Positions 7,416-16,686 of a stretch of 37,596 nt of DNA are shown here, in pieces. The notes under the pieces were generated by a model, which was not told the DNA's origin, searched no databases, and saw nothing but the letters and a program-made list of their open reading frames with translations. Location: the NCBI GenBank assembly GCA_018897435.1, contig JAHIKI010000072.1, forward strand, positions 1-37,596, in the 5' to 3' direction. The position numbers were made by a program, and so were the translations under genes. Within the stretch, counting starts at the first letter, position 1. Each line of letters starts with the position of its first letter. The stretch comes from Acidobacteriota bacterium (GTDB lineage Bacteria; Acidobacteriota; Aminicenantia; UBA2199).

Positions 7416-7658
7416 TTTGCAATGGAGAAAATCCCGAAACATCTGGTGACGGCACCCCTAGTCAAGAGGTCGAAGAATGGCAGCGCTACGGGAGCCCGTC
7501 ACCATGCTGAGGTCCGCCGAAGCATCTGGTGACGGCACCCCGCTTTGCGGGGGGTGGATGGTCGGCTGCTGCCGACCACACTGCGTGCAGCTCGCTACGC
7601 TCGCTGTCCCAATTCGCTGCTGCGAATTGGTCGAACCCCGGTTTAGTGACTGAGAATC
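7416..7658 (-). repeat. tRNA-Glu-derived hairpin mosaic, left copy
   Basis: Begins with TTTGCAATGG, as does the right copy. The piece 7478-7492 equals the 3' end of tRNA-Glu (complement of TGGCAGCGCTACGGG). The piece 7631-7658 is a 28-nt exact match to tRNA-Glu from the anticodon loop to the T-loop. A 138-nt insert separates the two pieces and replaces three T-arm bases. The insert carries hairpins at 7496-7535, 7560-7577 (GGTCGGC-TGCT-GCCGACC) and 7609-7630 (CCAATTCGC-TGCT-GCGAATTGG). The orientation matches the intact tRNA-Glu at 16.6 kb. It is a candidate remnant attachment site. Confidence 0.75.
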
Positions 7659-7911: not shown

Positions 7912-8250
7912 TTAAGGTTTTTTTACAATTACGCTTCTATCTGCAAGTGATTTTGCTTTGGATGGTGTTTTTTGCCCAAGAATGACACTATGAGAATGAT
8001 TATTTTTTGAAGGTCTATGAATAACATCCAATTTCATCTCGCGAGGAATTTTAGCCTTTATTGAGGCCAAGAAATATCCAGAATATCCTTTTAAACTTTC
8101 TTCTGGAGTCGAATATTTTGACCAATCTACCGATGTTTCAGGATCCCTAAAGGCGGCAGAACTAGGACGATTCTCTGTCTCGATATACCAGACACGTGGA
8201 ATTCTACGATAAACATTATCGTTATCAGGAATTATTTCAATTTCTGTCAT
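7912..8250 (-). CDS. Small conserved protein of unknown function (AT-rich cassette, gene 3)
   Basis: The product of about 112 residues has no characterised domain that I can name. Its layout, YRRIPRVW, then SSAAFRDPE, then SVDWSKYSTPEESL, then DVIHRP and HSHSVILGQKT, matches a sporadic family of small accessory-region proteins that I recall. The HRP and HSHS segments hold its conserved histidines. The ATG at 8250 overlaps the stop of the preceding gene by 14 nt; an alternative ATG lies at 8265. It is the last gene of a tightly overlapping three-gene AT-rich operon, so it probably acts with the two upstream products. No membrane segment or signal peptide is visible. Confidence 0.7.
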   Translation of the reverse strand: MTEIEIIPDNDNVYRRIPRVWYIETENRPSSAAFRDPETSVDWSKYSTPEESLKGYSGYFLASIKAKIPREMKLDVIHRPSKNNHSHSVILGQKTPSKAKSLADRSVIVKKP

Positions 8251-8935
8251 CCAAAAACCAACCATTAATTAAAAAAATTGCATCTTCAAAATTAAAAGTA
8301 TTTCCTTCTTTTTTAGTTTCGCTTAAACTTGTTTTTTCAATTTGTAAATACTCGATCGGACAAGCATCATCTTCGGGAATTGTAATAATTAATTCCTTAT
8401 AACAGCTATTCCATTCAAATTGAATGCCTCCATCTGATAAAGGGGCAATAAATGGAATTGGAATATAGCTTAGTTTTTTTAGAAATCGAGAATAAAGAAT
8501 TCTTGAAATAAAATCTATCCCTTTAGCAATAGTCGACCATTTTATTGGCACCGCTGAATAGGAATCCCAACCTTTTTGCAATGTAGCAAACATTTTCAAT
8601 CTTGAATAAATAGGTGAGGAAAAACCGAAAGTAAATTTTTCAATATATTCTGATTCCATGAGGTAATTTTCAGTTTTTGATTTTTCTTCAGAATTAATTT
8701 CATAATTTTGAAATGGAAATTCCATTGGATACAATGAAATAATTTTCCATATAAAAGGATTTGATTGATTATGAAATAAACGCTCAGGATAATTTGATGT
8801 AAAAATTGGATAATTATTAGAATGCGTTTGTTCAACTTTTGATTTCGAAAAATCATTCTTATCTTTATAAAAATCGAATAAATCTATAACTTTTGAAGAA
8901 TTCGCTTCTCTTTTTATTTCAAGTATATTATTCAT
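8237..8935 (-). CDS. Conserved protein of unknown function with GWD/GGIQFEW motifs (AT-rich cassette, gene 2)
   Basis: A soluble 232-residue protein with a lysine- and asparagine-rich N-terminal half that looks poorly conserved. The C-terminal half has LQKGWDSYSAVPI at about residues 119-131, then PIPFIAPLSDGGIQFEW and ELIITIPEDD. The GWDxxxAxP ... P ... GGxQxEW ... LxIxIxxD arrangement recurs, from memory, in an uncharacterised family of accessory-region proteins often next to the gene-3 family. It starts in a 4-nt overlap with gene 1 (ATGA at 8932-8935), so translation is coupled. GC content is far below that of flanking genes. The biochemical role is unknown. Confidence 0.75.
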   Translation of the reverse strand: MNNILEIKREANSSKVIDLFDFYKDKNDFSKSKVEQTHSNNYPIFTSNYPERLFHNQSNPFIWKIISLYPMEFPFQNYEINSEEKSKTENYLMESEYIEKFTFGFSSPIYSRLKMFATLQKGWDSYSAVPIKWSTIAKGIDFISRILYSRFLKKLSYIPIPFIAPLSDGGIQFEWNSCYKELIITIPEDDACPIEYLQIEKTSLSETKKEGNTFNFEDAIFLINGWFLDDRN

Positions 8936-9633
8936 TGAATTGGAAAATATTTTTGTAAAATCGAAATTTGCTCTTTATTGATTGAGTTTAAAAACTTCTT
9001 AGCATTTTTTTCATTAAAATCTAACTTATCAATTTCCTCTGCCAAAGTATTTATATCCTGTTCAATAAGTATAGCAGGTTGATTGTTGTTTATCAATCCA
9101 GAGTTACACTTTACCCAACTATTAATATTAAAATTTTCATATTTATACTTTTTATGCGATTGAATATTAAAAGTTTCAGGGCGATTGAAGGGTTCCTTTA
9201 ACCATCGCTCTTTGCAAAAATGATTTGCAAGAGCAAGGCCAGGGTTATCATTATAAATATATTTAGTCATTACAAGTGCTAGTCTTCCAATTTTTGCAGA
9301 GCAGCATTCGACATACTTTTTTTGAATAGTAATGGCAAAATTAAAAAACTCTGCTTCATCTATCGATTCTTCATCTGGAAGTATAAAATTAAAAAGATTG
9401 ACTCTATTTAATGCAATTTCCATTTTTAATTTTTTATCAGAACTAGTAAAAATTATTCTGGGAAATTCTTTTGGCGCATTATCAGGCAATGGAATAGAAG
9501 TGGTATTTCCATTAAATTCTTTCGAGAAAGAATTCATTATTTCACCCAGGATTTTATTCATAGAAAAAATTAATGCAGGAGTAAACATAGAATATTGAAT
9601 AGAAAATATTTTAAATTCTTTTGCCGAAATCAT
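8932..9633 (-). CDS. TIGR04255-like protein, first gene of AT-rich cassette
   Basis: A 233-residue soluble protein. The pattern APKEFPRIIFTSSDKK, then MEIALNRVNLF, then a C-terminal INSWVKCNSG...ILIEQDIN followed by FLNSINKEQISILQKYFP resembles the sporadically distributed TIGR04255 family. The match is by eye and tentative, and no function is known for that family. It is the promoter-proximal gene of the three-gene unit. No Shine-Dalgarno is present; instead TTGATT-17-TATTTT ends 6 nt before the ATG, which suggests a leaderless transcript. It is divergent from the DUF6429/nuclease operon. Confidence 0.7.
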   Translation of the reverse strand: MISAKEFKIFSIQYSMFTPALIFSMNKILGEIMNSFSKEFNGNTTSIPLPDNAPKEFPRIIFTSSDKKLKMEIALNRVNLFNFILPDEESIDEAEFFNFAITIQKKYVECCSAKIGRLALVMTKYIYNDNPGLALANHFCKERWLKEPFNRPETFNIQSHKKYKYENFNINSWVKCNSGLINNNQPAILIEQDINTLAEEIDKLDFNEKNAKKFLNSINKEQISILQKYFPIQ

Positions 9634-9735: not shown

Positions 9736-10002
9736 ATGGAAAAAATGATTGTTGAACTCTGTCTGTTGCTCATGTACTTGACCGGCTGGGAGGAGGACTC
9801 CCGGCAGAAGCCCGACGAGAAGATCTTCAGGGCCTGGAAGGGATATCTGTTTGAGGTGCTGAACAAGCTGGCCGACGAAAAAATGATCGTCCAGTTCCAG
9901 AACACCAAGTCGGTGACCCTGACCGAAGCAGGCAAGCAAAAGGCCCAGCAGCTGAAGGATCAGTTCTTCAGCGAGAAAGGAGCAAACCATGACAAATGGT
10001 AA
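9736..10002 (+). CDS. DUF6429 family small protein
   Basis: An 88-residue soluble protein that fits DUF6429: an N-terminal ELCLLLMYLTGWEE helix, then RAWKGYLFEVLNKLADEKMI, then SVTLTEAGKQKAQQL. This looks like a compact winged-helix arrangement, so a DNA-binding or scaffold role is possible but unproven. A strong GGAGG lies 7 nt before the ATG. Its stop overlaps the start of the downstream nuclease fusion by 14 nt, so the two are translationally coupled. It is divergent from the AT-rich cassette across about 100 nt. Confidence 0.85.
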   Translation: MEKMIVELCLLLMYLTGWEEDSRQKPDEKIFRAWKGYLFEVLNKLADEKMIVQFQNTKSVTLTEAGKQKAQQLKDQFFSEKGANHDKW

Positions 10003-11662
10003 TGGGAAGACCATCCTGACAAATTCGGCCATCAACGCCTTTAAATCCTGCGCCCGGAAGTATTACTGGAGGTACGTCCGCGAGATCGAGGTCCTGGCAC
10101 GGCCGGAAGCGTTGTTGCTTGGCTCTGCCATTCACGGCTTTTTGGAAAGCCACTATCGGCAACTGCCCTACTCCATGCCCAGTGACTTAAATCCCAAGAG
10201 CCAGGCAATCTTGAAAGGGGTAGCTGAATTTTACCCAATTTTGTTCATGGATGATGCTGACCTGTTCGACCCAGTGGCCATAGAGAAGACCATTCATGGC
10301 GCGATACTGAACCCGCAATCGGGCCGGCCAGCCCGCGAATACGCCTACGGTGGTAAGATCGACGGACTGGTGGTATTGAAAAAAGATGTGGAGGATTTCA
10401 AGGCTGGCGATTTGCTGCTTTTGGAGCATAAGACCACCACCAAGGTCGATGAAAACTACTTTGACCGTCTGCAGCTGGATTCCCAGCTACGCCTCTATGT
10501 TCTCTTTTTGGCAAGGGAGCTGGGAGCGCCAGTCGCTGGCTGCCTGTTCAACGTGATACTGAAGCCACGCCTCAGGCCGCGTAAGAATGAAAGCGAAGAG
10601 GAATACGGTCATCGGTTGAGGCTGGAAATGAACTGGCCCGAAATGTACCACCGGCGCTACCTGCGTTTCTCTGACCAGCGGCTGCAGGAGATCCAAAAAG
10701 AACTGTGGGATGCCAAGACCCTTATCGCCAAGGCCAGGAAGGAGAACGTTTTTACAATGAACTCAGCAAGCTGTTTCGATTGGCATCGTCGGTGCGATTA
10801 TTTTGACCTATGTGCCAGCCAGGATCCCGAAACGGCCATCAAGGAAAGTGGGCTATTTCAGCACCAGGAAGCCCATGTAGAGCTTGTGACAGGTCCTGGT
10901 GAGGTTTTTTTTGGTCGAAGCGGCCGGAGAGCCGTTCTAGGAGGAAATATGAATGAAATAAAGCAATCTACGGGGAACAATAATCCCCATGTCATTTTAC
11001 TGTATGGCCAGAGCAAGATCGGCCTGAGTTCGATTGCGGCCCAGTTCCCGGCGCCACTTTTCCTGAACATCAACGACGATCTGGAGCAGATCAAGACCAG
11101 GTCACTAAGGGTCGGAAGCTGGGATGAGTTCCTGGAGCATGCCCTGGAGATCTCCAAAGGCAAATATGCGCCCCAGACCATTATCGTCTCGCACATCGAC
11201 GGGTTGTGGGATCTGGCCCAGGATTTTGTGGTCGAGAGCTTCAACAAGCTGAACGGGGCCAACGTCAAGGCCCTGGCCGATGCCAGTTATTCCTTATGGA
11301 AAGAAGCCCTTAAGCTATTCGAATCCAAGCTGGTCAAATTGAGCGGACTGGGCAACCTGGTCCTGCTGGCCCATGAGATCGTCGAGAACAGGAACTTCAA
11401 CGGCATCGAACGGTCGGTGGTGCAGGCCAACTTGGAGCGCTATGTTCAGAGCAAGGTGACCAACCTGGCCGACGCCATCGGGCGTGTGCTTCTCACCGAG
11501 TCCGGGGCAAGGCTGGTAACATTTCAGCCGGCGCCGCACCAGATCACGGGCTCTCGGCTGACCGAGTTGCTGCAAAAGCAGTATGTCATCGAGACCGGCA
11601 AGAAGCCTGAGTTCATCGATGAGTTGGAAAACCTCCAGCAAAAGGCGAAAAAAATCGCATAA
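9989..11662 (+). CDS. Cas4/RecB-like PD-(D/E)XK nuclease fused in frame to a RecA-like domain
   Basis: Residues 1 to about 290 are a RecB/Cas4-type nuclease: His49 (GSAIHGF), Asp125 (KIDGLVV), Glu146 and Lys148 (LLEHKT), and a downstream QLDSQ. Cys21 with Cys262, Cys269 and Cys275 gives the one-plus-three cysteine layout of Fe-S nucleases. Residues 320-557 resemble phage Sak4/AAA_24 RecA-like ATPases. There the P-loop reads GQSKIGLS (340-347), with Leu at the usual Lys position, and the Walker B region reads TIIVSHIDGLW, with Ser at the usual Asp. TAGGAGGA stands 4 nt before an in-frame ATG at 10949 (Met321), so a separate C-terminal product is likely. The linker just before it looks like a translated intergenic spacer. 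Related proteins are usually two adjacent phage recombination genes. Confidence 0.85.
   Translation: MTNGNGKTILTNSAINAFKSCARKYYWRYVREIEVLARPEALLLGSAIHGFLESHYRQLPYSMPSDLNPKSQAILKGVAEFYPILFMDDADLFDPVAIEKTIHGAILNPQSGRPAREYAYGGKIDGLVVLKKDVEDFKAGDLLLLEHKTTTKVDENYFDRLQLDSQLRLYVLFLARELGAPVAGCLFNVILKPRLRPRKNESEEEYGHRLRLEMNWPEMYHRRYLRFSDQRLQEIQKELWDAKTLIAKARKENVFTMNSASCFDWHRRCDYFDLCASQDPETAIKESGLFQHQEAHVELVTGPGEVFFGRSGRRAVLGGNMNEIKQSTGNNNPHVILLYGQSKIGLSSIAAQFPAPLFLNINDDLEQIKTRSLRVGSWDEFLEHALEISKGKYAPQTIIVSHIDGLWDLAQDFVVESFNKLNGANVKALADASYSLWKEALKLFESKLVKLSGLGNLVLLAHEIVENRNFNGIERSVVQANLERYVQSKVTNLADAIGRVLLTESGARLVTFQPAPHQITGSRLTELLQKQYVIETGKKPEFIDELENLQQKAKKIA
10940..10951 (+). promoter_or_regulatory. 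Internal ribosome binding site and start inside the fusion
   Basis: GGAGGA lies 4 nt before the in-frame ATG at 10949-10951. It could give a free product of about 237 residues containing only the RecA-like domain. Its perfect spacing argues that the two domains were, or still are, translated separately. Confidence 0.6.
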
Positions 11663-11902: not shown

Positions 11903-13036
11903 TCAATCCGGAATATTCGTCGTGCTGAGCTTGAATCCTCTCGGAAGATGTCCATTGGACAAAGCAATAGCATACTCCGCATTATTTAGCCAAACAGGAG
12001 CATTAGCACTACCACCAATATACGGCGAGACCTTTCCATCATAAGGATTATTATCGCCAGCATCCCACTGAATACCAGTACCACCATGATTAACACTCTC
12101 TTCCAAAACAGTACCTAAAGCTGCATCTGCGGGCGCCACAAAACCAGACCAATTAAAAGTATTAGAAGAAACATTGTTTGATCCTCCAGGAGAAACTTTT
12201 TTAACGACATAAGTCATACCATCAGAAAGCTTCTCAGTGACGATGCCAACATAAGTCCACTTGACTCGGTTATTAGGTATATTATTAAGGATGTCAAGAG
12301 CCCTCTTGAAAGTCGTGACTGTGAAATCAGTAGGATCCTGAGCATTCTCATCGGTGCCTTTCATTATAGCAGCATTCTTCTCAACAACACCGCTAATATT
12401 ACCATCAGAAGTATTATAATTCTGGATAGTACCATCGCCAAGATCTTTATTATCGACCTGATTGCCTACGCACTTGGCCAGAAGAACAGGATCGACAGCA
12501 CTGGAGATAAGCCTTACAAAGTACTGCTTGCCATCCTGAACAGTGAAGGACTTATTCATACCATTACGATCCTTGTAAGCAACAACATTACCTTCGGAGT
12601 CTGTGAATACAGCATAGCCGGTGTAATGGCCTGCGGCGTCAGTGACAACAATATCAGATATTGAATTAGAGCCTGAACACTTGAACTGGCCTCCGCTAGT
12701 GCCAGTGACCTGGGTGCCGTTGGCAAGCTTCACAAGAAGATTGCCGTTCACAGCAGCGTCGGTGACAACGTCCTTGTTCTGAATTGTGATGGTGTAGTCG
12801 CCGCCGCTGTTGTCATCGGTTTTCTTCTTGGTCAGGAAATAGACCCCCACCCCCACTGCCGCCACGCCCAGCAAAGCAATGAGCCAGGGGAACTTTTTAT
12901 GCTTCTTAACGATTGGCGTCCCCGCCTTCTCCTGGAACTGCGGTGAGCTCTGTTCCATGGCCCAGGTTACGCCTATCCCGATAAATGCGATCAACACCAC
13001 TACAGCGATAGTTTTTTTCCAGCTATGAATGCCCAT
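11903..13036 (-). CDS. Secreted or membrane-anchored protein of unknown function, intact paralogue
   Basis: 377 residues. The N-terminus (about 9-26) is a signal-type hydrophobic stretch, a basic VKKHKK patch follows, and a second hydrophobic helix (PWLIALLGVAAVGVGVYFL) covers about residues 50-68. The rest is polar, rich in Asn, Gly, Ser and Thr, and likely beta-structured. It ends in WLNNAEYAIALSNGHLPRGFKL. Four cysteines occur at most. The start is set by GGGAGGA 3 nt before the ATG. A second, broken copy lies at 14840-15618; the two share roughly the first 150 codons at high identity. The 3' two-thirds is more AT-rich than the 5' part. Function unknown; it is probably extracytoplasmic. 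Confidence 0.75.
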   Translation of the reverse strand: MGIHSWKKTIAVVVLIAFIGIGVTWAMEQSSPQFQEKAGTPIVKKHKKFPWLIALLGVAAVGVGVYFLTKKKTDDNSGGDYTITIQNKDVVTDAAVNGNLLVKLANGTQVTGTSGGQFKCSGSNSISDIVVTDAAGHYTGYAVFTDSEGNVVAYKDRNGMNKSFTVQDGKQYFVRLISSAVDPVLLAKCVGNQVDNKDLGDGTIQNYNTSDGNISGVVEKNAAIMKGTDENAQDPTDFTVTTFKRALDILNNIPNNRVKWTYVGIVTEKLSDGMTYVVKKVSPGGSNNVSSNTFNWSGFVAPADAALGTVLEESVNHGGTGIQWDAGDNNPYDGKVSPYIGGSANAPVWLNNAEYAIALSNGHLPRGFKLSTTNIPD

Positions 13037-13346
13037 TTATCCTCCCTGAAAAAGCATTATATGCAAAAATTACAAGAAATGGGAGGGGCACGGCGCGCCG
13101 AAAATCAATAATATTTCGCAACCTTTTTCTCTCCTCATTTCCCCCTTACTTGCTCTCACTATGATTTCAATCAGTTCTGTAAAATATTGAAATCATATAG
13201 TGAGACAACCCTCCGGCCAAGGGGGGACAAAGGGGGGATCCGCTATCGTTAAAACAAGAAATTATGTCAACCATTGCGGATCTAATTTGCACGTCGCCAA
13301 AGGGAGTGGAACGCCCTGGATTCCTCATGCAACAATATGCGAAATT
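13037..13346. other. Intergenic region with long palindrome
   Basis: Apart from the palindrome at 13155-13204, this contains a G-run stretch at 13221-13238 that resembles dispersed repeat debris. No coding frame is supported here. It separates the end of the DUF4143 ATPase from the start of the secreted paralogue, both on the minus strand. Confidence 0.5.
13155..13204. repeat. Long imperfect palindrome
   Basis: CTCACTATGATTTCAAT (13155-13171) pairs with ATTGAAATCATATAGTGAG (13186-13204) with a single 2-nt bulge and a 14-nt loop. No T-tract follows on either strand, so an operator or a mobile-element end is as likely as a terminator. Confidence 0.6.
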
Positions 13347-14666
13347 TCAGGACAGCCAGGAATGGTCCTTTATCAGGGCTTCAACGGCGTACAGGGGGAT
13401 GGATTGGATCTTCTGATCGGAAGCGAAACCGGATTCACAAATCCTGACGCCGCCGGTGCTTCTTTTCTGTTCCATAAAAAGCCGCAAGCTTTTCATCCGG
13501 CCCGTTGTTCCGCTCTTGACTTCCACCGGGATGATCCTTTCGTTGCTGCTGATGACGTAATCCACTTCAGCATTGCTGGATTTTGCCTCTCTATGCCAGT
13601 AAAACAGCGAGGGAGCCTGGCGGAAATCCACATAGGCGATCAGCTCGAGCCCGACAAAAAGTTCGGCCATCGTCCCATGATTCACACCCATCAGGTCCGT
13701 TTTCAAGAGCAAGCTTTTATAGTCCAGCTTCATCAGCCTCTGGGCCAAGCCGATGTCGAAAAGCAGAACCTTGAATTTGTCGGGATTCACCTCCGCGCCC
13801 AATGGTATCCCGTTGGCGCTGGTGTGACACACTTTGTAAGCCAGCCCGGCCATCTCGAGGAGAGTCAGCGCCTCCCGGTAAAACTTGCTGCGCGTGTCCT
13901 GGGAGATCCTGCTGTACTTGAATTTCCCCCCCAGCTGCAGGGGGATGGAATTGAACACCTGTTCCATGTATTTCAATTGGCTCTCCCTGGCGTATTTATG
14001 AAAGTCGGTCCGCAGAGTGTGCAGCATATCGCTCTGGATTTCCAGGCATTTTTCCAGCCCGGCGCCGTTGACATGGTTCTGCACCACTTCGGGCATCCCC
14101 CCTGTCATGCAGTAATTCTTGACCTCCGACAGGAGCTTTTCGTGGAATGGTTTCTGCAGGGGAACATAACGGTTCTCCAGCAGCATGTTGCGCATGCGGC
14201 CGTTTCCCCCAGCCTCCAGGAATTCAGCGAAGGAAAGGGGATATACCTGGATAACATGAATCCGGCCGACCGGGATCGCTATGTTGCGCAATTCGAATTC
14301 TAAAAGCGATCCGGCCGATATGACATGAAGCTCCGGCATCTCCTCATAAAAGTATCTGAGTGCAGTAATGGCTCTGGGGCAATTTTGGATTTCATCAAGG
14401 AAAAGGAGGGATTGACCCGGTTTGATCTCTTTGCCAAGATAATTGGCTAAATTCCGGCAGAGGGAACGCGGCTCCAGATCGCCCTGGAAAAGACCACAAA
14501 TTTCAGGATTCTTTTCGAAATTCACTTCGATATAGTTTGGGAAGGTTTTGCCAAATTCCTTGGCCAGCCAGGATTTCCCCACCTGACGGGCGCCGCGCAT
14601 CAGGATAGGCTTGCGGTTTGAACCGACCTTCCAATCCAGCAGGGCCTGAAAAATGTCTCTTTTCAT
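13347..14666 (-). CDS. AAA_14/DUF4143 family ATPase
   Basis: 439 residues, the standard size for this family. The N-terminal P-loop domain has Walker A GARQVGKS (25-32) and Walker B LLFLDEIQ (about 87-94), followed by the sensor-like VISAGSLLEF. The C-terminal DUF4143 region ends in a restriction-enzyme-like fold, seen as AEVDYVISSNERIIPVEVKSG (the D-EVK nuclease-type motif). GGAGGAG sits just before the ATG. These proteins are common, often transferred and sporadic; a toxin- or defence-like role has been suggested but none is established. It stands alone as a transcription unit between the two secreted paralogues. Confidence 0.93.
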   Translation of the reverse strand: MKRDIFQALLDWKVGSNRKPILMRGARQVGKSWLAKEFGKTFPNYIEVNFEKNPEICGLFQGDLEPRSLCRNLANYLGKEIKPGQSLLFLDEIQNCPRAITALRYFYEEMPELHVISAGSLLEFELRNIAIPVGRIHVIQVYPLSFAEFLEAGGNGRMRNMLLENRYVPLQKPFHEKLLSEVKNYCMTGGMPEVVQNHVNGAGLEKCLEIQSDMLHTLRTDFHKYARESQLKYMEQVFNSIPLQLGGKFKYSRISQDTRSKFYREALTLLEMAGLAYKVCHTSANGIPLGAEVNPDKFKVLLFDIGLAQRLMKLDYKSLLLKTDLMGVNHGTMAELFVGLELIAYVDFRQAPSLFYWHREAKSSNAEVDYVISSNERIIPVEVKSGTTGRMKSLRLFMEQKRSTGGVRICESGFASDQKIQSIPLYAVEALIKDHSWLS

Positions 14667-14839
14667 TGCTCCTCCCTCCTTTACAGAAAACTTACATTAG
14701 AATAGTAGCATAATTATTGCTATAAATCAATGTTTAATTATCAGTTTTTGTGCTAAATGGAAGGGATTTATTGATTTCCTTGATTTAACGGTAAATTAAA
14801 ATCGAAATTTCCGCCGAAATCTTTTTTCACTACCCCGTC

Positions 14840-15618
14840 CTATTCGGCCGGTTTTCCGCCCTTCAGATAAACCACCCAGCAGCGGCCCAGGCCAAGAATT
14901 TCCTCGATTGCCGGCTCGTAGCGCCCCGCGACGTCCACGACCGCCAGGCCGAACTTGTTGAAGAACGACTTGGCGGCGATGGTGCAGCCGAAGTGGGGTG
15001 CCGAGAGCTTCAATGCGCCGGGCTTCTTGCCGTCCCTTGTGAATTCCAGGATGAGGGCGTGGTTGCGCCGCGAGTAGTGCAGCCGCGCGTGGCTGCAGCC
15101 GGCAATCTCCCCCTGCGCCGCCCTGATGAACCCGCTGTTCAGGAGCAGGATGCCGCGCCGGCTGACTACATTGCCGTCAGAATCAGTGAACACAGCATAG
15201 CCGGTGTAATGGCCTGCGGCGTCAGTGACAACAATATCAGATATTGAATTAGAATCAGTGAGCTTGAACTGGCCTCCGCTAGTGCCAGTGACCTGGGTGC
15301 CGTTGGCAAGCTTCACAAGAAGATTGCCGTTCACAGCAGCGTCGGTGACAACGTCCTTGTTCTGGAGTGTGATGGTGTAGTCGCCGCCGCTGTTGTCATC
15401 GGTTTTCTTCTTGGTCAAAAAATAGATCCCCACACCCACCGCCGCCACGCCCAACAAAGCAATGAGCCAGGGGAACTTTTTATGTTTCTTAACGATTGGC
15501 GTTCCAGCCTTCTCCTGGAACTGCGGAGAGCCCTGTTCCATGGCCCAAGCCACACCCACCCCTATGAACGCGATTACCACAACTATGGTGATTTCTTCTT
15601 CCATCCCTGAACACCCAT
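14840..15618 (-). pseudogene. Broken, chimeric copy of the secreted protein
   Basis: Homologous to 11903-13036 over its 5' part, with AGGAGG before the cognate ATG at 15618. A single-base deletion about nine codons in (TGGAAGAAGAAATC, against TGGAAAAAAACTATC in the intact copy) shifts the frame and gives an early TAG. An ORF started further upstream reads on through the rest but has no ribosome site. After the shared YAVFTDS.GNVV the sequence switches abruptly to an unrelated GC-rich tail (14840 to about 15165) reading RRGILLLNSGFIRAA...ILEFTRDGKKPGALKL. That tail resembles the end of a different small accessory protein. I interpret it as a recombined duplicate. Confidence 0.7.
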
Positions 15619-15715
15619 GAGCCCTCCTGGAAAGAGCATTATCGCCGACCATTTTAAAAAAGGCAAATTAAAATCATTTAAGTCCTGCCCAAAAAGAGCA
15701 GGCAAGGAGAATAAA

Positions 15716-16611: not shown

Positions 16612-16686
16612 TGGCAGCGCTACGGGGATTCGAACCCCGGTTTAGTGACTGAGAATCACCCGTCCTAACCCCTAGACGATAGCGCC
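16612..16686 (-). tRNA. tRNA-Glu (anticodon CUC)
   Basis: 75 nt. The acceptor GGCGCUA pairs with UAGCGCU (one G-U pair), with discriminator G and an encoded CCA. The anticodon arm is GGUGA-UUCUCAG-UCACU, which gives CUC, decoding GAG. The T-arm is CGGGGUUCGAAUCCCCG. Fragments of this gene recur at 7.5 kb and 16.3 kb. It is probably cotranscribed with tRNA-Gln, which ends 59 nt upstream. Confidence 0.95.

Follow-up and report, generated by a model that had tools for sequence, protein, structure and literature searches.

A candidate tripartite toxin-antitoxin-like cassette with a predicted ADP-ribosyltransferase-fold protein at a tRNA-Glu site of an Acidobacteriota genome

Organization and genomic context of the cassette

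The stretch of DNA analyzed here (the window, 37,596 nt) carries at positions 7912-9633 three co-directional open reading frames (ORFs) on the minus strand, designated genes A, B, and C (Table 1). Genes A and B overlap by 4 nt, and genes B and C by 29 nt with the first ATG of C (8265) or by 14 nt with the second (8250), which would give a protein of 112 amino acids (aa). The second ATG is the more likely start in the light of the structure model of C, because residues 1-5 alone fall below pLDDT 50. The ORFs agree with the original prediction, made from the letters alone, of three genes overlapping by 4 and 14 nt, the latter corresponding to the second ATG. All three frames match their respective families without stops and none seems decayed; frame decay, which the prediction had named as an argument against the trio, was not seen. 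Promoter and terminator scans around the cassette stayed at chance level, and the RNA fold 3' of gene C had modest stability only (z -2.15).

The trio had a GC content of 0.290, compared with 0.526 for the median of the window (standard deviation 0.063, windows of equal size), making it essentially the lowest-GC stretch of its size in the whole window and bearing out the AT-richness relative to the flanks that had been noted at the outset. The cassette lies in an island with a tRNA-Glu fragment at one edge and an intact tRNA-Glu gene at the other (Table 1), and further repeats of 51 nt (98%) and 92 nt (86%) adjoin this repeat pair, in accordance with the predicted island edged by tRNA fragments. 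A genome of the same genus (G002) shares the tRNA-Glu/tRNA-Gln pair together with the genes on its right but differs on the left; the site at tRNA-Glu is therefore variable, and the cassette sits at it. No integrase was recognized among the scanned proteins between the repeats.

Other genes were observed nearby. Adjoining the trio, at 9736-11662, a DUF6429 gene overlaps the gene of a fused PD-(D/E)XK nuclease/Sak4-like AAA_24 protein, that is, phage-type recombination functions. At 11903-15652, an AAA_14/DUF4143 ATPase (PADLOC PDC-S01, E 3e-139) is located between two genes that share a common 300-nt repeat at 93% identity (12582-12881 and 15165-15464).

Table 1. Features of the cassette and of the island edges, in window positions. 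Residue counts refer to a 35-row alignment of gene C; two of its rows are the window sequence, and alignment was forced for the most distant ones.
Feature	Position	Strand	Basis or remark
28-nt fragment of tRNA-Glu, island left edge	7631..7658		Direct repeat, 100% identical to 16630-16657
Gene C (third gene), SSAAF protein, 117 aa, predicted ADP-ribosyltransferase-like toxin	7912..8265	-	ORF, model
His92 codon, gene C, candidate third triad residue, start of predicted strand 5 (92-96)	7990..7992	-	H in 35/35 rows
Ser45 codon, gene C, candidate NAD-site residue, predicted strand 2 (43-48)	8131..8133	-	S in 34/35 rows, one gap
Arg20 codon, gene C, candidate NAD-site residue, predicted strand 1 (17-22)	8206..8208	-	R in 33/35 rows
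Gene B (second gene), GWD protein, 232 aa, antitoxin position	8237..8935	-	ORF
Gene A (first gene), distant TIGR04255-like, 233 aa	8932..9633	-	ORF
Intact tRNA-Glu(CTC) gene, island right edge	16612..16686	-	ARAGORN; beside tRNA-Gln in relatives too

Conservation of the trio and of its first gene

With three GWD proteins from trio-type loci as seeds, 25 loci were recovered from a collection of 84,980 genomes, and in 23 of these, a share to be read as an upper estimate because seeds drawn from trios favor trios, genes for TIGR04255, GWD, and SSAAF proteins stood in the same order and on the same strand. At the gene junctions of these loci, neither overlaps nor gaps exceed 18 nt, and the trios belong to Acidobacteriota, Planctomycetota, Proteobacteria, Actinomycetota, and Myxococcota, so that the conservation in distant genomes for which the original prediction had proposed a neighborhood survey was found in five phyla. 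Two additional trios lay outside the scan (L022 and L109), and GWD proteins recovered in searches of the phylum adjoin TIGR04255 and SSAAF genes. Among the first-gene proteins of five sister trios, four exceeded the cut-off of the TIGR04255 model (L045, L034, L041, and L020; 59-84 bits) and one (L049) fell below it with 20 bits.

The first gene can be swapped while B and C are retained. In L021, PDC-M32A brings its own N-domain; in other loci, the place of the first gene is taken by DUF4209, a HEPN family (PMC3710099), on two Hymenobacter plasmids (L024 and L026), and in L047 by a protein of 190 aa in which no similarity to TIGR04255 was detected. The plasmid loci (L024:3965-6773 and L026:3931-6839) consist of DUF4209, GWD, and SSAAF-like genes, one of them near BrxA and BrxE. 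Homologues found mostly apart had been named beforehand as an observation against the prediction: GWD and SSAAF proteins occur mostly together, whereas TIGR04255 also occurs with many other partners. The trio is no local accident: it belongs to a family of toxin-antitoxin-like operons that is scattered widely and undescribed so far.

TIGR04255 is sporadic: in the phylum, 29 of the 297 genomes searched have it. Two more TIGR04255 operons are found in the window's own genome, on C60 and C33. In the sampled TIGR04255 loci, which were taken from the phylum and own-genome searches irrespective of GWD, genes one and two usually share a few nt, and the gene in third place differs from locus to locus. 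The latter encoded PIN (L095, E 1.7e-11), PemK (L105, E 5.8e-19; more weakly L102, E 0.006), in a weak case HEPN (L099, E 0.009), DUF7689 (L100), small unassigned proteins, or an SSAAF-like protein after GWD. By profile, GWD was the second gene in six of the sampled loci (L097, L098, L101, L106, L107, and L109).

Two further arrangements were observed among these operons. In L057:4533-5958, L059:2915-4348, and L103:1517-2937, TIGR04255 is followed by two small toxin-like genes, overlapping or adjacent; HicA/HicB, an impression from the sequences of these partners, was set aside, as Pfam gave no confirmation. The operons of L060, L061, L090, L093, and L096 have a downstream protein of 185-285 aa with a conserved QDCDL-like motif (QTCDI in L093), and no Pfam family was found for those of these proteins that were scanned.

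Relation of gene A to TIGR04255

Pfam and NCBIfam scans of the window proteins A, B, and C gave no match. Gene A had no match at E<=1 to the curated TIGR04255 model (NCBIfam, cut-off 30 bits) and was not recovered in a TIGR04255 search of the window's own genome, and its homologue L009 in genome G062 reached 21 bits, under the cut-off. It matched phrog_24110, a phage family of unknown function, at E 1e-9. In profile-profile comparison, gene A against 21 canonical TIGR04255 members gave E values of about 9e-4 (local) and 4e-4 (global); the comparison with the TIGR04255 proteins of trios only was negative, and the signal came from the wider canonical set alone. Gene A had originally been called TIGR04255-like, of which a distant similarity stands and family membership does not; at best, it would be a distant TIGR04255 relative in the same operon place. 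Among the papers searched, none mentions TIGR04255. Against sequences of solved structures, gene A gave nothing meaningful, and matches to lysozyme were dismissed as noise (E>=0.06).

A-type relatives were detected in 3 of 396 genomes of the phylum, namely the window's own and two others (G062 and G260), and in none of 15 other genomes of the genus searched. Escherichia, Salmonella, and Klebsiella also have the A family, on small plasmids from about 3 kb upward; there the A-type gene is the first of two, and the second encodes a small protein with a hydrophobic stretch at its C-terminus. Loci L003, L004, and L005 are such plasmids of ~3-7 kb (E. coli, Salmonella, Klebsiella, and Rahnella), on which the small gene (127-163 aa) overlaps or abuts the A-type gene, an experimentally easy sister cassette. 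At L023:5094-6876, an A-type gene is followed by a 204-aa protein of unknown type and a 158-aa HEPN-like protein, with toxin-antitoxin-like genes adjoining.

The structure model of a canonical TIGR04255 trio member (pLDDT 90) has two alpha/beta halves, and its best Foldseek matches were TATA-binding proteins (TBP), at E 5e-4 but with TM below 0.4. The strand order of the model had suggested a SecB-like chaperone; for TIGR04255 this was rejected, as the matches were of TBP type and SecB was absent from the top 50.

Gene B and the PADLOC candidate PDC-M32

Gene B has a conserved W123 and a GGIQ(F/L)EW motif, and the residues L119, W123, P165, G169, G170, Q172, E174, and W175 are invariant in the family alignment. 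Of 396 genomes of the phylum, 6 encode GWD proteins, one of them being the window's own; the five genus members in the phylum sample yielded no relative of gene B. Searches of sequences of solved structures with genes B and C gave nothing meaningful, and searches of viral contigs with genes A, B, and C returned one weak GWD relative and otherwise nothing.

In PADLOC, gene B matched PDC-M32A at profile positions 263-356 only, that is, in the C-terminal part (E 7e-7). Window gene C had no PADLOC match at E<=1; its relative L019 matched PDC-M32B at E 0.0013, and in L021 the gene after PDC-M32A matches the C profile. In both PDC-M32 and the cassette, the GWD domain, C-terminal in PDC-M32A, is followed by an SSAAF protein in a tight operon, and L021 has both. 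In contrast, the N-terminal half of PDC-M32A (about 375 aa) is absent in the window, where a separate TIGR04255-like gene comes first. These comparisons indicate that the GWD and SSAAF pair is homologous to PDC-M32, a candidate reported from a Sinorhizobium meliloti prophage (PMC12429752).

In addition, a TIR-TM gene adjoins one trio, and BrxA/BrxE genes are near one GWD and SSAAF pair. Among 100 flanking ORFs, many of them mechanical calls, 5 matched any PADLOC family at E<=1e-10, a count made without a control set and showing no clear enrichment of defense genes. The phage-defense side of the original prediction thus gained the PDC-M32 homology and these single neighbors and found no clear counterpart in the flanks at large; a phage-defense role of the cassette is weakly supported.

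Predicted structure and candidate active site of gene C

The AlphaFold2 model of gene C, built on 23 aligned sequences, had a pLDDT of 94. In a Foldseek search of the PDB, Tpt1/KptA occupied ranks 1-15, 17, and 18, with AvrPphF ORF2, an ADP-ribosyltransferase-fold effector, at rank 16; the best match had E 0.011, probability 1.00, and TM 0.52. RNA 2'-phosphotransferases, DarT, and PARP were among weak matches in a viral structure library. Conserved residues R20, S45, and H92 lie on strands 1, 2, and 5 of the model, the usual places of the ADP-ribosyltransferase triad residues, and the likeness of predicted fold and of these positions extends to Tpt1/KptA and to other ADP-ribosyltransferases (RES/ParT, DarT). 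No solved ADP-ribosyltransferase was matched by sequence, profile searches included, and the assignment of C to a predicted ADP-ribosyltransferase-like fold therefore rests on the model. Tpt1 has a separate RNA-binding lobe (PMC6333775), for which C, with just 117 aa and no detectable sequence similarity to Tpt1/KptA, has no room. At 112-117 aa, C would be an unusually small ADP-ribosyltransferase for this fold, given that Tpt1 among the matches has ~180 aa.

Proposed function and alternative explanations

Because some TIGR04255 operons end in PIN or PemK/MazF toxins, GWD (gene B) would be at the antitoxin position and SSAAF (gene C) at the toxin position. We propose that the cassette is a tripartite toxin-antitoxin-like system with a small ADP-ribosyltransferase-fold toxin, a reading to which we assign a rough probability of 0.55 and in which toxicity and NAD+ use of C, a function of B as antitoxin and of A as sensor or chaperone, and a purpose in defense are inferred. 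In such a system, C, as a minimal toxin of this fold, would modify a nucleic acid or a protein at the expense of NAD+ and stop growth or phage production. B would keep C inactive, and A might be a third component that stabilizes or releases the B/C pair, perhaps upon sensing infection, in the manner of the chaperone in toxin-antitoxin-chaperone systems. The toxin-antitoxin side of the original prediction is strengthened by the gene order shared across phyla, the TIGR04255-headed operons with PIN and PemK, and the predicted fold of C, the protein that would be toxic. Against this reading, the Foldseek E value of C is just 0.011, the model of canonical TIGR04255 resembles TBP-type two-repeat folds rather than SecB, and gene A fails the TIGR04255 model.

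By analogy, CmdTAC would be the closest functional counterpart. In this system, capsid protein draws the chaperone off, the antitoxin undergoes degradation, and mRNA is ADP-ribosylated by the toxin (PMC11618068); more generally, the third component of toxin-antitoxin-chaperone systems is common to several toxin families (PMC11618068, PMC5105189). CmdTAC and the cassette share three components, with an ADP-ribosyltransferase toxin in the former and a predicted one in the latter. Unlike the SecB-like third component of the chaperone systems, that of the cassette is TIGR04255-like, with a TBP-like canonical model, and the antitoxin (here GWD) and toxin families are different.

Other explanations were weighed on the same evidence. 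Polarity could be reversed, with C acting by ADP-ribosylation on another part, which it would restrain or modify, and with A, B, or DUF4209 as the toxic protein, just as MntA modifies the HEPN toxin HepT. The two plasmid loci that join GWD and SSAAF with the HEPN protein DUF4209 (PMC3710099), where DUF4209 itself could be the toxin, and the G062 locus with an A-type protein and a HEPN-like small protein would fit such an arrangement, which we nevertheless consider improbable, since most trios have no HEPN or other known toxin apart from C and since PIN and PemK toxins fill the third position of sister operons. A dedicated anti-phage system without toxin-antitoxin logic, with A (or the N-domain of PDC-M32A, or DUF4209) as sensor, B as adaptor, and C as effector, is conceivable though unlikely. 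It would be consistent with the homology of B and C to PDC-M32, reported in an S. meliloti prophage (PMC12429752), with the exchange of the first gene while B and C stay (L021, L024, and L026), and with the TIR-TM and BrxA/BrxE neighbors; PDC-M32 is, however, itself a candidate, PADLOC families account for 5 of the 100 flanking ORFs, and ordinary toxin families are found among the partners of TIGR04255.

The tRNA 2'-phosphotransferase as the nearest fold of C might also point to an enzyme module outside genetic conflict, for example in RNA repair or nucleotide metabolism with Tpt1-like activity. Such a module is quite improbable in view of the missing room for the RNA-binding lobe of Tpt1 in the 117-aa C (PMC6333775), the sporadic distribution (A-type in 3/396 and GWD in 6/396 genomes of the phylum), the foreign composition, and the location at a tRNA site. 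Very improbable is neutral foreign DNA without current function: the very low GC content and the absence of gene A relatives from the 15 other genus genomes would suit it, whereas the three intact frames and the retention of family-wide invariant residues speak against it.

Within the toxin-antitoxin-like reading, we tentatively extend the proposal, at somewhat less than even odds, to TIGR04255 as a general, so far unrecognized, non-SecB third component that serves PIN, PemK, HEPN-like, and other toxins, with C of the cassette as a new minimal Arg-Ser-His ADP-ribosyltransferase toxin under its control. The annotation of TIGR04255 currently goes no further than a sporadic family without known function, and if TIGR04255 is a swappable third toxin-antitoxin component, one assay would assign a function to this scattered family. 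If true, the proposal would also add a non-SecB class to the tripartite systems and explain the candidate PDC-M32.
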